From assembly GCF_014648575.1 (NCBI RefSeq), contig NZ_BMRJ01000001.1:356623-420622 (forward strand): DNA of 64,000 nt. Reading direction: 5' to 3'. The notes beneath the pieces were generated by a model, which did no database searches, was not told the origin of the DNA, and was given only the letters and a program-made list of their open reading frames with translations. Shown here piece after piece: positions 28,565 through 33,282 of the stretch; position 1 is the first letter of the stretch, and every line of letters begins with the position of its first letter. The DNA is from Agromyces mediolanus. GTDB lineage: Bacteria > Actinomycetota > Actinomycetes > Actinomycetales > Microbacteriaceae. The translations under genes were made by a program, and so were the position numbers.

Positions 28565-31024
28565 GTGGACGACGCGACGCGACTCGGGGCCACGCAGCTC
28601 GGCGCCACCGACCCCGTCGGCGGCCTGAGCCGGGCCGAGGCCGCGCGCCGCGCCGCGGCGGGGCTCGCGAACATCGCGACGGATGCCTCGAGCCGGAGCC
28701 TCTGGAGCATCCTCCGCGCGAACGTCTTCACCCTCTTCAACGGCATCGTCGTCGGTGGCTTCGCCCTGCTCTTCGCGCTCGGCCGCTGGCAGGACGCCCT
28801 ATTCGGCTTCGCCGCGATCGCGAACGCCGCGATCGGCGTCACCCAGGAGTACCGCGCCAAGCGGGCGCTCGACCGCCTCGCCCTCCTGCACGCGCCGAAG
28901 GCGCGGGTCGTCCGCGACGGCGAGGAGCAGGAGCTCGCCGTGCGCGAGGTCGTGCTCGGCGACCTCCTCGTGCTCCGCGCCGGCGACCAGGTCACCGCCG
29001 ACGGCGTCGTGCTCGACGGGCTCCGCCTCGAGGCCGACGAGTCGCTCCTCACCGGCGAGTCCGACCCCGTCGACAAGCTGCCGGGCGACCGCGTGCTCTC
29101 GGGCTCGATCATCGTCGCGGGCCAGGGCTCGGTCGAGGTCACGGCGGTCGGCGACCAGGCGTTCGCGGCGACGCTGACCGCCGAGGCGAAGCGGTTCTCC
29201 CTCGTCGCCTCCGAGCTGCGCAGCTCCGTCGACCGCATCCTGAAGTGGATCACCTGGGCGATCTTCCCGATCATGATCGTCGTCGTGAACGCGAACATGC
29301 AGGCCGCGGGCGGCTGGCAGCACGCGATCGAGAGCGGGGCGTGGCGGGATGCCGCGACGGCCTCGGTCGCGGCGGTGATCGCGATGATCCCGCTCGGCCT
29401 GGTGCTGATGACGAGCATCGCCTTCGCGGTGGGCGCCGTGAAGCTCGGCTCGCACAAAGTGCTCGTGCAGGAGCTGCCCGCGGTCGAGGGCCTCGCCCGC
29501 GTCGACCTCATCTGCCTCGACAAGACCGGCACGATCACGACGGGCGACGTGCGCTTCGACGGGGTGCACGAGCTCGGCGAAGCCCGGCCCGCCCACTGGG
29601 AGCGCGTGCTCGCCTGGCACGGCGCGGAGCCCGAGGCGAACGCGACGGCCCGCTGCCTGGCCGAGCGCTTCCCCGACGACGAGGGGCTCGCCCCGGCGGA
29701 GCGCATCGAGTTCTCCTCCGGGCGCAAGTGGAGCGCGGTGTCCTTCGCCGACGGCGCCGCGGGCACCTGGGTGTTCGGCGCCCCGGAGTTCGTGCTGGCC
29801 GACGGCGCCGGGCCCGAGCGCGGTGCGGCCCTGGCGCAGGGGCGCGAGCTCGCCGCGAGCGGTCGGCGCACGCTGCTGCTCGCGCACGCGCCCGAGCCGC
29901 TCGACGCCGGCCTCGTCGAGCAGGCCGCGCTGCCGGGCGGACTCGTGCCGGTCGCCCTGCTCACCTTCCGCGAGGTGGTGCGCGACGACGCGGCATCCAC
30001 GCTCCGCTACTTCGGGAAGGAGGGCGTCGAGGTCCGCGTGATCTCCGGCGACAGCCCGCTCACCGTCGCCGCCGTCGCCCGCGAGGTCGGCCTCGACGCC
30101 GGCGAGGGCTTCGACGCCCGCGAGCTGCCGGACGACCCGGCCGAGCTCGGCCGGGTGCTCGACGAGCACCGCGTGTTCGGCCGGGTGACTCCGGTGCAGA
30201 AGCGGGCGATGGTGCACGCGCTGAAGGAGCGCGGCCACACCGTCGCGATGACCGGCGACGGCGTGAACGACGCGCTCGCGATCAAGGACGCCGACATGGG
30301 CATCGCGATGGAGTCGGGCTCCGCCGCGACCAAGGCGGTCGCCCGCATCGTGCTCCTCGACAACCGCTTCTCCCACCTGCCGGGCGTCGTCGCGGAGGGA
30401 CGGCGGGTCATCGCGAACATCGAGCGGGTGTCGATGCTCTTCCTCTCGAAGACCTCGTACGCGATCACGATGTCGGTGCTGTTCGGCATCCTGCTCTGGG
30501 CGTTCCCGCTGCTGCCGCGCCAGCTCTCCGTGACCGACGGCCTCACCATCGGCATCCCCGCCTTCCTGCTCGCGCTGCTGCCGAACTCCCGGCGCTACGT
30601 GCCCGGCTTCCTGCGCCGCTCGCTGTCGTTCGCGATCCCGGCGGGGCTCGTGGTCGCGGCGGCGATCACCGCGGTCTCCGGGATCGCTCGCGCGACGGGG
30701 GACGCCGAGGACGCCGTGCGCACGGCGTCGATGGTGACGCTCGCGCTCATCGGGCTGTGGATCCTCGGCGTCCTGTCGCGCCCGTTCACCTGGATCAAGG
30801 CGGGCGTGGTGCTCGCGATGGTGGCCGGGCTCGCGCTCGTGCTCGTGGTGCCGATCGCGCAGCAGTTCCTCGAGCTCGCCATGCCGGGGCGGGAGACGCT
30901 CACCGCGATGGCCTGGGCGGTGCCAGTCGCCTGGGTGCTGATCGAGGGGATCGGCTTCTGGCACCGCCGCCGGTTCGGCGCGGCCTCCGAGATCGAGGTG
31001 AAGCGGGTCAGGCGCCGGAGCTGA
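28565..31024 (+). CDS. P-type cation-transporting ATPase, CtpE-like
   Basis: 819 residues. P-type ATPase signatures are complete: TGES loop LLTGESDPVD (about 160), phosphorylation site LDKTGTITTGD (D319), and hinge MTGDGVNDALAIKDADMGIAM. The helix before the site reads MIPLGLVLMTSIAFAVGAVKL, as in mycobacterial CtpE, which has been linked to calcium transport; no CPC-type heavy-metal motif and no N-terminal metal-binding domain are present. Ca2+ is therefore the best guess, not proven. The start is GTG 28565. It overlaps the convergent MFS gene by 17 nt. Confidence 0.88.
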   Translation: MDDATRLGATQLGATDPVGGLSRAEAARRAAAGLANIATDASSRSLWSILRANVFTLFNGIVVGGFALLFALGRWQDALFGFAAIANAAIGVTQEYRAKRALDRLALLHAPKARVVRDGEEQELAVREVVLGDLLVLRAGDQVTADGVVLDGLRLEADESLLTGESDPVDKLPGDRVLSGSIIVAGQGSVEVTAVGDQAFAATLTAEAKRFSLVASELRSSVDRILKWITWAIFPIMIVVVNANMQAAGGWQHAIESGAWRDAATASVAAVIAMIPLGLVLMTSIAFAVGAVKLGSHKVLVQELPAVEGLARVDLICLDKTGTITTGDVRFDGVHELGEARPAHWERVLAWHGAEPEANATARCLAERFPDDEGLAPAERIEFSSGRKWSAVSFADGAAGTWVFGAPEFVLADGAGPERGAALAQGRELAASGRRTLLLAHAPEPLDAGLVEQAALPGGLVPVALLTFREVVRDDAASTLRYFGKEGVEVRVISGDSPLTVAAVAREVGLDAGEGFDARELPDDPAELGRVLDEHRVFGRVTPVQKRAMVHALKERGHTVAMTGDGVNDALAIKDADMGIAMESGSAATKAVARIVLLDNRFSHLPGVVAEGRRVIANIERVSMLFLSKTSYAITMSVLFGILLWAFPLLPRQLSVTDGLTIGIPAFLLALLPNSRRYVPGFLRRSLSFAIPAGLVVAAAITAVSGIARATGDAEDAVRTASMVTLALIGLWILGVLSRPFTWIKAGVVLAMVAGLALVLVVPIAQQFLELAMPGRETLTAMAWAVPVAWVLIEGIGFWHRRRFGAASEIEVKRVRRRS

Positions 31025-32447
31025 GCTCCGCCGCCTCCGGCTGCTCCGCTCCGGCAGGGCCGCGGCCCCGTCCGCGCAGGAACAGCACCGCCGCGAGGAA
31101 GCCGACCGCCGCGACGATCGCGGCCCCGAGGAACGCCGCCGCGTAGCCCGAGGTCAGCCCCGCGGCATCCGTCCCGCTCGTCGCCGCGGCGCCGACCGCG
31201 GTGAGGATCGCGAGGCCGACCGCCGAGCCGATCTGGTAGCTCGTGTTCACGAGGCCGGAGGCGACACCCGCCTCCTCCGGGCGGGCGGCGCTGATCGCGG
31301 TGCCGAGCGACGGCACGAAGGCGAGCGCCATGCCGAACGCCGCGACGAGCGAGGCCGGCAGCACGTCGACCGCGTACGCGCCGTCCGGGCGCACGAGGGC
31401 GAGCCAGCCGAGCCCGACGGCGAGCAGCACGAAGCCCCACACGATGAGCGGCTTCGCCCCGAACCGCGCCTGCAGCCGCGGCGCGAGCGCCACCATGACG
31501 ACGACGATGAGGGCGGTCATCGGCAGGAGCGCCGCGCCCGAGGCGAACGCGCCGGCGCCGAGCACCTGCTGCAGGTACAGGTTCAGGAAGAACCACATCG
31601 GCACCCACGCGGCGCCGAGGAGGAGCTGCGCGAGGTTCGCGCCGCCGAGCTGCGGGGCGCGGAAGATGCCGAGGCGGAGCAGCGGCGTGCGCCGGCGGGC
31701 CTGGATGACGAAGAAGAGGGCGAGGAGCACGGCGCCGACGATGAGGCCGACGATCGTCTCGGGCCCGCCCCAGCCCGCTTCGGGCGCGCGGACGACGGCG
31801 TACACGATCGCCGCGAGGCCGAGCGTCGCCGTGATCGCCCCGCCGACGTCGACCGAGCCGCGTCCGCCGGGCACGGCGGGCAGCGCCGCGGGCGTGAGCG
31901 CGATGACGAGGATGGCGATCGGCACCGTGACGTAGAAGACCCAGGGCCAGCTCGCGTACTCGGTGAGCACGCCGCCGAGGAAGACGCCCGCGGTGCCGCC
32001 GATGGGGGCGGCCGCTCCGTAGACGGCGAAGGCGCGGGGGAGCTCCGGCGTGCCGCCGAAGAGCGCCATCAGCAGCGAGAGTGCGGCCGGGGCGATGAGC
32101 GCAGCTCCCGCGCCCTGCACGGCGCGGCCGACGATCTCGGTCACCGCGTCGGGGGCGGCGCCGGCGAGGATCGAGCCGATCGCGAGGATGACCCAGCCGG
32201 CGATGAAGACGCGGCGGGCGCCGAGCACGTCGGCGAGGCGTCCGCCGAGGAGGAGCAGGCCGCCGAAGGCGACGACGTAGGCGTTGAACACCCACGACAG
32301 CGACTCGGGGGAGAAGCCGAGGGCGGCCTGCATGTCGGGCAGGGCGACCCCGATGATCGAGGTGTCCATGATGACGACGAACTGGGCCGCGGCGATGAGC
32401 GCGAGGCCGAGGCCGCGGCGCCCGCCGGATCTGCTGCTGGGTGACAT
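31008..32447 (-). CDS. MFS drug-export protein (DHA2/EmrB-QacA type)
   Basis: 479 residues with about 14 membrane helices and the DHA2 signatures: MDTSIIGVALPDMQ in helix 1, WVFNAYVVAFGGLLLLGGRLADVLGARR (helix 2-3 with motif A), and GAGAALIAPAALSL. It should be a proton-driven exporter; substrate unknown. ATG with GGAG 8 nt upstream. Its promoter (32510-32538) is overlapped by a CsoR-type palindrome, so export is probably induced by copper, persulfide or formaldehyde rather than by a drug-responsive repressor. Confidence 0.88.
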   Translation of the reverse strand: MSPSSRSGGRRGLGLALIAAAQFVVIMDTSIIGVALPDMQAALGFSPESLSWVFNAYVVAFGGLLLLGGRLADVLGARRVFIAGWVILAIGSILAGAAPDAVTEIVGRAVQGAGAALIAPAALSLLMALFGGTPELPRAFAVYGAAAPIGGTAGVFLGGVLTEYASWPWVFYVTVPIAILVIALTPAALPAVPGGRGSVDVGGAITATLGLAAIVYAVVRAPEAGWGGPETIVGLIVGAVLLALFFVIQARRRTPLLRLGIFRAPQLGGANLAQLLLGAAWVPMWFFLNLYLQQVLGAGAFASGAALLPMTALIVVVMVALAPRLQARFGAKPLIVWGFVLLAVGLGWLALVRPDGAYAVDVLPASLVAAFGMALAFVPSLGTAISAARPEEAGVASGLVNTSYQIGSAVGLAILTAVGAAATSGTDAAGLTSGYAAAFLGAAIVAAVGFLAAVLFLRGRGRGPAGAEQPEAAELSSGA

Positions 32448-32491: not shown

Positions 32492-32508
32492 ATACCCCTA
32501 GGGGGTAT
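32492..32508. promoter_or_regulatory. CsoR/CstR/FrmR-type operator
   Basis: ATACCCCTAGGGGGTAT: arms ATACCCC and GGGGTAT around a central TA(G). This G/C-tract palindrome with ATA/TAT ends is the known operator class of CsoR-superfamily repressors. It begins 2 nt downstream of the -10 box of the MFS gene promoter and would cover its start site. Confidence 0.7.
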
Positions 32509-32509
32509 A

Positions 32510-32538
32510 GATATAGTGGAGGGTGGCTGCGGCGTCAA
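32510..32538 (-). promoter_or_regulatory. strong sigma70-type promoter of the MFS gene
   Basis: On the minus strand: TTGACG (32533-32538), a 17-nt spacer, TATATC (32510-32515). It is the closest match to the consensus in the window. Confidence 0.75.
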
Positions 32539-32583: not shown

Positions 32584-33282
32584 ATGACGGACGCGCACGG
32601 CCAGCAGATCGCCCCTGGGTGGTACCCCGACCCCGCCGGCGGCGGCGGACAGCGATGGTGGGACGGGATCGGCTGGACCGAGCACGTCGCGCCGGCGACG
32701 GCGCCGGCAGCCCCGGCAGCCCCGGCAGCCCCGGCGGCCCCGGCAGCCCCCGTCGCGCCGGCCGGCCCCGCGCCGTACCAGCCGTACGGCACGCCGGTCC
32801 ACCGCGTCCCGGACGGCACGCCCACCGGCACCGTCTGGATCTGGCTCGTCGTGCTCCTGCCGCTCGTGCCGCTCGTGGCGCTCTTCTTCTGGGACGTGCG
32901 CGGCTATCTCGAGGCCTCGATGGCGAACCCCTACGGGGGGACGACCGCGATGTTCCTCGACCCGGGGTACCTCGCCCTGATGGTGCTCGGCTGGGTCACC
33001 TACGGCCTGTCCGTGTGGTTCTCGTACCTCGACTACGCCGCCCTCGGCAAGCTCGGCTACGCGCGCCGATTCCACTGGGCGTGGACCTTCCTCTCCGCCC
33101 TCGTCTACGTCATCGGGCGGTCGGTGTTCGTGCGCCGTGAGGCCGGCGGCCGCGGCATGGCCCCGCTCTGGGTCGTCATCGCCGTGAACGCGACGAGCTT
33201 CGTCGTGGTGATGATCTGGACGGTCTGGCTCATCACGCAGGTCATCGACTTCGCGCGCTCCGTGCCCATGGCGGGCTACTGA
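32584..33282 (+). CDS. DUF2510 domain membrane protein
   Basis: 232 residues. The N-terminal DUF2510 module reads APGWYPDPAGGGGQRWWDG...WTEHV (about 9-40), followed by a Pro-Ala linker made of PAA repeats (about 42-65), then about four membrane helices in the rest. DUF2510 is a short putative ligand-binding module typical of actinobacterial membrane proteins. It is divergent from the MFS exporter; GGGAG precedes the ATG. Confidence 0.8.
   Translation: MTDAHGQQIAPGWYPDPAGGGGQRWWDGIGWTEHVAPATAPAAPAAPAAPAAPAAPVAPAGPAPYQPYGTPVHRVPDGTPTGTVWIWLVVLLPLVPLVALFFWDVRGYLEASMANPYGGTTAMFLDPGYLALMVLGWVTYGLSVWFSYLDYAALGKLGYARRFHWAWTFLSALVYVIGRSVFVRREAGGRGMAPLWVVIAVNATSFVVVMIWTVWLITQVIDFARSVPMAGY

Follow-up and report, generated by a model that had tools for sequence, protein, structure and literature searches.

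In an Agromyces genome, a gene for an exporter of the major facilitator superfamily (MFS) carries across its promoter a palindrome of the kind that CsoR-family repressors bind. What is such an operator doing there, and to which signal does it tie the gene? A sequence-only reading of the locus had assigned the palindrome to a class shared by CsoR, CstR and FrmR, and had left open whether the exporter handles a copper complex or a toxic thiol or aldehyde product. Here we describe the operator and the protein, together with their counterparts in the host genome (3.86 Mb, 99.97% complete), across Agromyces and beyond the genus. The whole 64-kb stretch of DNA analyzed, C1:356623–420622 of the host genome, is called the window throughout.

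Results

A putative CsoR-type operator at the exporter promoter

The palindrome ATACCCCTAGGGGGTAT (Table 1) is real and beyond chance: it occurs once in the window, and it is absent, at up to three mismatches, from 100 dinucleotide shuffles of the window. On the minus strand, TTGACG-N17-TATATC is followed directly by TATACCCCCTAGGGGTATT, and the exporter ATG, at 32447, lies 46 bp past the 15-bp operator core; transcription would be expected to start inside the operator. The core, TACCC-N5-GGGTA (the N5 element), has the form expected of a copper CsoR operator, a TAC-X9-GTA inverted repeat with G/C tracts in which X9 consists of CC, N5 and GG. It does not have the N3 spacing of the palindromes in Agromyces CstR loci. 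A divergent gene for a DUF2510 protein (32584–33282, plus strand) begins 76 bp from the operator.

Table 1. Positions of the features at the exporter locus (window numbering) and of N5 places in the host genome (C1 numbering)
Feature	Position	Strand	Remarks
MFS exporter (DHA2/EmrB-like, nearest solved structure EfpA)	31008..32447	-	479 aa
CsoR-type operator (putative)	32492..32508	.	sequence match, conservation, core shared with S. lividans operators
15-bp core TACCC-N5-GGGTA, TACCCCCTAGGGGTA	32507-32493	-	within operator
-35 element TTGACG	32538-32533	-	TTGAC retained in 11/25 Agromyces orthologues
-10 element TATATC	32515-32510	-	17 bp from -35; retained in 12/25 Agromyces orthologues
N5 place	C1:82657		before P1B ATPase; TIGR01511 (copper model) 576.5 bits, cut-off 397
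N5 place	C1:785095		before copZ and His-rich protein gene; HMA-bearing 1018-aa frame next
N5 place	C1:389115		window exporter operator
N5 place	C1:969144		before second MFS exporter

The exporter protein

The protein belongs to the MFS: PF07690 scores 163.2 bits against a curated cut-off of 33.4, and its best structure matches are MFS folds. It had been called a DHA2-type drug exporter, and that narrower label has to be softened; the DHA2/EmrB model TIGR00711 gives 213.2 bits, below its cut-off of 230.2, and we term the protein DHA2-like only. Its AlphaFold model (pLDDT 87.6), by our reading, has 14 helical passes, and the nearest solved folds are EfpA (Z 46.3, rmsd 2.8, 459 aligned, 30% identity), NorC (Z 43.2), QacA (Z 40.9) and EmrB (Z 40.3). 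The sequence is 96% identical to the exporters of A. soli and A. mediolanus, and by this gene the host belongs to Agromyces.

Conservation was read from 80 sequences, the window exporter and 79 relatives, and compared with 25 paralogues, which are 25 of the weaker places from the Agromyces search. Invariant in the former and rare or rarer in the latter are W85, E104, M127, Q249, W281, M284, W285, N289 and Y404, with paralogue counts of 0 for E104, 4 for M127 and 6 for M284. M318 is likewise invariant in the 80 sequences, at a position where the paralogue alignment is uncertain. Neither Cys nor His reaches 80% conservation at any position in these 80 sequences. Because three of the search peptides contain M27, W85 and W281/M284/W285, the invariance of these residues is partly built in; among the 21 sequences found by other means (17 loci outside the genus and 4 plasmids), each is kept in 20 or all 21. 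M27 is present in EfpA too. The Met/Trp/Glu set would be compatible with a soft-metal path and proves nothing.

A P-type ATPase gene adjacent to the exporter (28565–31024) was considered as a copper partner and rejected. Its best specific model, TIGR01647, scores below cut-off, the gene converges on the exporter, and, among the 80 relatives, only the two closest (L013 and L014) have such a non-P1B ATPase immediately behind the exporter.

The same element elsewhere in the host genome

The plain N5 element has five places in the GC-rich host genome, against about three expected from base composition and two for the reversed pattern, so the number of places proves little on its own. The stricter TACCCC-N3-GGGGTA, a form of the N5 element with tracts of four C and four G, has three places, against 0.4 expected and none reversed. 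Other copies of the palindrome, for which the sequence-only reading had proposed a search, thus exist, and they precede a copper ATPase, a copZ unit whose CopZ carries the motif GMTCGHC, and a second MFS exporter (Table 1). The window exporter and copper-export genes of the host genome therefore have a CsoR-type operator in common. The remaining place, C1:291650, falls in a repeat-rich stretch, surrounded by GTTACCC repeats, and we excluded it from the regulon.

Two of the neighboring genes are described here for the record. The second MFS exporter (L006:178–1473, minus strand), which has its own N5 operator, resembles TIGR00900 at a score below the cut-off, and its relatives adjoin the first exporter in 8 of the 80 relatives' loci. 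Between copZ and the HMA-bearing ATPase frame lies a gene for a His-rich or similar protein of ~270–325 aa (L094:303–1131, minus strand; C1 ~783.9–784.7 kb). One relative of this protein, L063:1221–2198, matched neither Pfam nor NCBIfam at E 1e-5; Rhodococcus plasmids carry a "hypothetical protein" at the same position, a likeness of place.

Candidate regulators

As had been noted from the sequence, no CsoR gene is nearby: the window contains no PF02583 (CsoR family) match, and the two PF02583 places of the host genome, C3:134382 and C1:2046628, lie outside it. The proposed genome-wide check for CsoR-family genes thus turned up two, and the absence that would have spoken against the proposal was not encountered. 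The host does encode a CsoR-family repressor (PF02583, 78.6 bits against a cut-off of 22.8). The C3:134382 protein has Cys-His-His in place of the classic Cys-His-Cys, the Cys and first His being kept and the third ligand being His, and its best match among solved structures is M. tuberculosis CsoR; from its sequence we class it as CsoR-like C-H-H. The other protein is CstR-like, with C..C and no His at the CsoR position, and its gene adjoins one for a CoA-disulfide reductase (names by sequence reading). That operon is preceded at C1:2048621 (L007:1501) by an N3 element, not N5; on the other side of the N3 palindrome, a very short Cys-containing frame starts ~30 bp away. By sequence, neither of the two places is FrmR-like, and no FrmR-like gene was found in the 99.97% complete genome.

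Among the 19 Agromyces examined (host included), the C-H-H CsoR gene has an exact N5 ~40 bp before its own start codon in 11; the host gene has one half-site only. Of 12 C-H-C CsoR genes from other Agromyces, 8 are preceded by an exact N5. In Agromyces, then, N5 seems to be the CsoR element. As no C-H-C CsoR gene was found in the host genome, the stand-alone C-H-H protein is the likeliest repressor, and we infer that it is likely the one that acts on the exporter in the host strain.

The operator across Agromyces

TACCCC-N3-GGGGTA occurs in 54 of 60 Agromyces genomes, at 141 places against 1 for the reversed pattern. Orthologues of the exporter (at least 72% identity) are present in 25 of the 60, and all 25 have an exact N5 within 220 bp upstream. 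None of the 25 paralogues (at most 46% identity) has N5 upstream at 9 or more of 10 positions, and one has a 9/10 match to N3. The promoter, which had been described as near-consensus, is indeed conserved, TATATC preceding the operator in 12 of the 25 orthologues and TTGAC accompanying it in 11 of these, but the -10 element matches at 4 of 6 positions only. The operator, present in all 25, is thus kept more strictly than the promoter; where TATATC or TTGAC is absent, the upstream sequence differs, and in some of these orthologues it holds two or three operators.

The spacing separates two sets of targets. Agromyces CstR loci (7–12 kb each) contain an exact N3 in 20 of 21 cases and N5 in none. 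Twenty further Agromyces N5 stretches each hold a match to a P-type ATPase, CopZ or the second MFS exporter. These 20 were hand-chosen from a shortened list, avoiding places already known before an exporter or CsoR, and are therefore no random sample; their ATPases are scored as P-type matches only. Within them, one of the two L239 places has no close match, and one of the two L233 places lies nearer to a DUF305 gene.

Relatives beyond the genus

The wider set comprises the best 80 of 194 relatives, each containing one or more of six search peptides without mismatch, from many actinobacterial genera including Agromyces. Upstream counts refer to 78 of them, L051 and L091 being excluded because they begin at a contig edge; start codons were partly projected from alignments, and the exporter frame of L060 is interrupted by a stop. 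In these best 80 of 194, an exact N5 lies within 400 bp upstream in 71 of 78, and a match at 9 or more of 10 positions in 76 of 78. Nine scrambled half-sites were each found in 0 of 78, as were spacings of N3, N4 and N7; N6 was found in 1 of 78. Two or more N5 operators stand in tandem in 25 of the 78 loci (e.g. L022, L028 and L031), most commonly spaced by 22–23, 32 or 71 bp, an arrangement that may allow cooperative or graded repression.

A class-wide search independent of peptide patterns yielded orthologues from at least 20 of 296 genomes, a lower bound because only five candidates per genome (E ≤ 1e-130) were scored. Among its 17 orthologues outside Agromyces, 12 have the exact element and one more has it at 9/10. 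Thus, the exact N5 is missing from the 400 bp upstream in 7 of the 78 relatives and in 5 of these 17. Three Rhodococcus/Prescottella plasmid loci have the N5 element with one mismatch (9/10); no element was found upstream of the exporter relative on a Paenibacillus plasmid, where a multicopper oxidase gene is nearby. The operator is not, then, an isolated oddity in front of one exporter but is carried by a clade of such exporters.

At least one copper marker lies near the exporter in 51 of the 80 loci (again the best 80 of 194): P1B ATPases in 34, His-rich proteins in 32, CopZ in 28, CsoR in 15 and YHS in 14. The P1B count is filtered for CPC/CPH; the unfiltered count of P-type ATPases, 40 of 80, includes non-copper ATPases. 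By comparison, none of 20 CstR loci, read over 7 kb where the exporter loci extended to as much as 9.5 kb, and none of 5 window pieces showed a copper marker; for the CstR loci this excludes the CsoR marker, which hits CstR itself (2 of 20). In 29 of the 80 loci the available DNA contains no copper marker, and the nearest relatives of the window exporter are among these. On three actinobacterial plasmids, genes annotated as "metal-sensitive transcriptional regulator," P-type ATPase and HMA/cation transporter lie ~7 kb or closer to the "MFS transporter." The A. kandeliae locus pairs the exporter divergently with a relative of the second MFS exporter, and genes for CsoR and a copper-type ATPase come next. 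A gene from a single cluster, whose L044 representative encodes a universal stress protein (PF00582), is near the exporter in 12 of the 80 loci, e.g. L044, L045 and L053.

Discussion

With the same operator before most of the relatives examined, the exporter very probably takes part in the copper-defence programme, and we regard it as very probably a trans-regulated member of the host's copper-detoxification regulon. For CsoR-mediated copper control in outline, the cargo excluded, we would give a probability of roughly 0.85 from comparative sequence evidence. Under such control, CsoR (likeliest the C3:134382 protein) would bind TACCC-N5-GGGTA past the -10 element and over the transcription start when copper is not in excess, blocking RNA polymerase. 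Upon taking up copper, CsoR would be released from the operator, and the exporter would be produced alongside the copper ATPases, CopZ and the second MFS exporter. The exporter would then expel Cu(I), a copper complex or a copper-toxified compound, probably in exchange for protons. We infer this last step, as we do the binding protein in the host strain and copper as the inducer.

Other members of the repressor family could, in principle, lie behind the operator. The earlier assignment to a joint CsoR/CstR/FrmR class was right in that a CsoR-family palindrome lies over the exporter promoter, but it lumped too much together, and the choice left among copper, thiol and aldehyde was too broad as well: the N5 spacing points to copper, as do the genes under the same control and the lack of any FrmR-like gene. 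The host does have a CstR-like gene beside a CoA-disulfide reductase gene, with a related palindrome before the operon, and a CstR-bound operator would make the exporter respond to persulfide or sulfide and remove a thiol or sulfur product. We consider this very unlikely, as the operon palindrome is N3, like that of nearly all Agromyces CstR loci, whereas the neighbors of N5 are copper genes; the one TauE-like gene beside the second-MFS site has its 3′ end towards the operator. Moreover, according to one report, CsoR and a CstR-like protein of Thermus do not bind each other's site (PMC10318464). Formaldehyde control of the FrmR type has in its favor that FrmR is a member of the same protein family, but it is scarcely credible here, where the only two PF02583 places are one CsoR-like and one CstR-like. 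A response to another metal (nickel, zinc or cobalt), or to several, is slightly more plausible than control by CstR and still improbable. It would follow from the C-H-H set of the candidate regulator, as such ligand swaps alter metal preference in the CsoR family. N5, however, precedes CopZ and ATPases scoring above the cut-off of the copper model, the nearest solved relative of the regulator is the CsoR of M. tuberculosis, and in other genomes relatives of the exporter pair with a C-H-C CsoR.

A different matter is what the exporter carries. The copper link may be real and the protein nonetheless a general drug or lipid pump in a wider defence, without any copper-related cargo; this is compatible with CsoR-mediated copper control, and we hold it to be a serious possibility with a little under an even chance, a judgment that concerns the cargo only. 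The best structure matches, EfpA, NorC and QacA, fit such a pump, as does the lack of conserved Cys or His, and EfpA, the nearest, is not a metal pump. Against it, the operator sits on the exporter clade and not on the paralogues, and E104, M127 and M284, invariant in the clade, are rarer in the paralogues. Somewhat less probable, and offered tentatively, is that the exporters form a dedicated copper-export clade within the 14-helix drug-pump family, in which a path lined by Met, Trp and Glu (M127, M284, M318, W281, W285 and E104) conducts Cu(I) or a small copper complex and the pump works alongside the copper ATPases. The clade might then travel with copper islands on chromosomes and plasmids, with the second MFS type serving the same regulon.

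CsoR-mediated copper control, in turn, has some general consequences. Genes of this kind would otherwise be taken for drug pumps; annotated relatives in the plasmid records are labeled "MFS transporter" only, and the link to copper control gives the clade a testable function. The finding suggests a copper-related exporter in addition to the P-type ATPases. Further, operator spacing (N5 versus N3) offers a means of distinguishing CsoR from CstR targets, demonstrated for Agromyces. Our literature search found no CsoR-controlled exporter of this type, although an earlier report within the S. lividans CsoR regulon is possible.

That regulon is the closest known parallel, as described in PMC3902906. 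TAC-X9-GTA is the common CsoR element of the csoR, copZA1 and copZA2 operators there, the copZA1 and copZA2 operators contain TACCCCCTAGGGGTA, identical to the 15-bp core of the window operator, and the identity to copZA2 extends to the 17 bp TATACCCCCTAGGGGTA. In calorimetric titrations, S. lividans CsoR bound copZA2-CON with a KD of 107 nM and copZA1-CON with one of 971 nM; as the 15-bp core is the same, the flanks matter (PMC3902906). The S. lividans operators described there serve csoR and two copZA units, whereas the window operator serves an MFS exporter, and the likely Agromyces repressor is a C-H-H protein whose gene is not adjacent to the exporter. The CstR persulfide regulon shares the protein family and the half-sites TACCC/GGGTA but differs in its N3 spacing in Agromyces and in its targets, which are sulfur genes. 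EfpA, QacA and EmrB, as 14-helix MFS pumps, share the fold at no more than 31% identity to the exporter. To our knowledge, none of the three is under copper control. Two further systems join an MFS protein to copper in other ways. The CcoA/CalT proteins are copper importers, CcoA having a Met/His site (reviewed in PMC7558416), whereas the window protein is a predicted exporter without conserved His or Cys. In S. tsukubaensis, as described in PMC7730460, the MFS gene STSU_23024 shares the regulator SigG1 with a copper transport operon; there, control is by a sigma factor, and the likeness to the Agromyces exporter is one of regulation.
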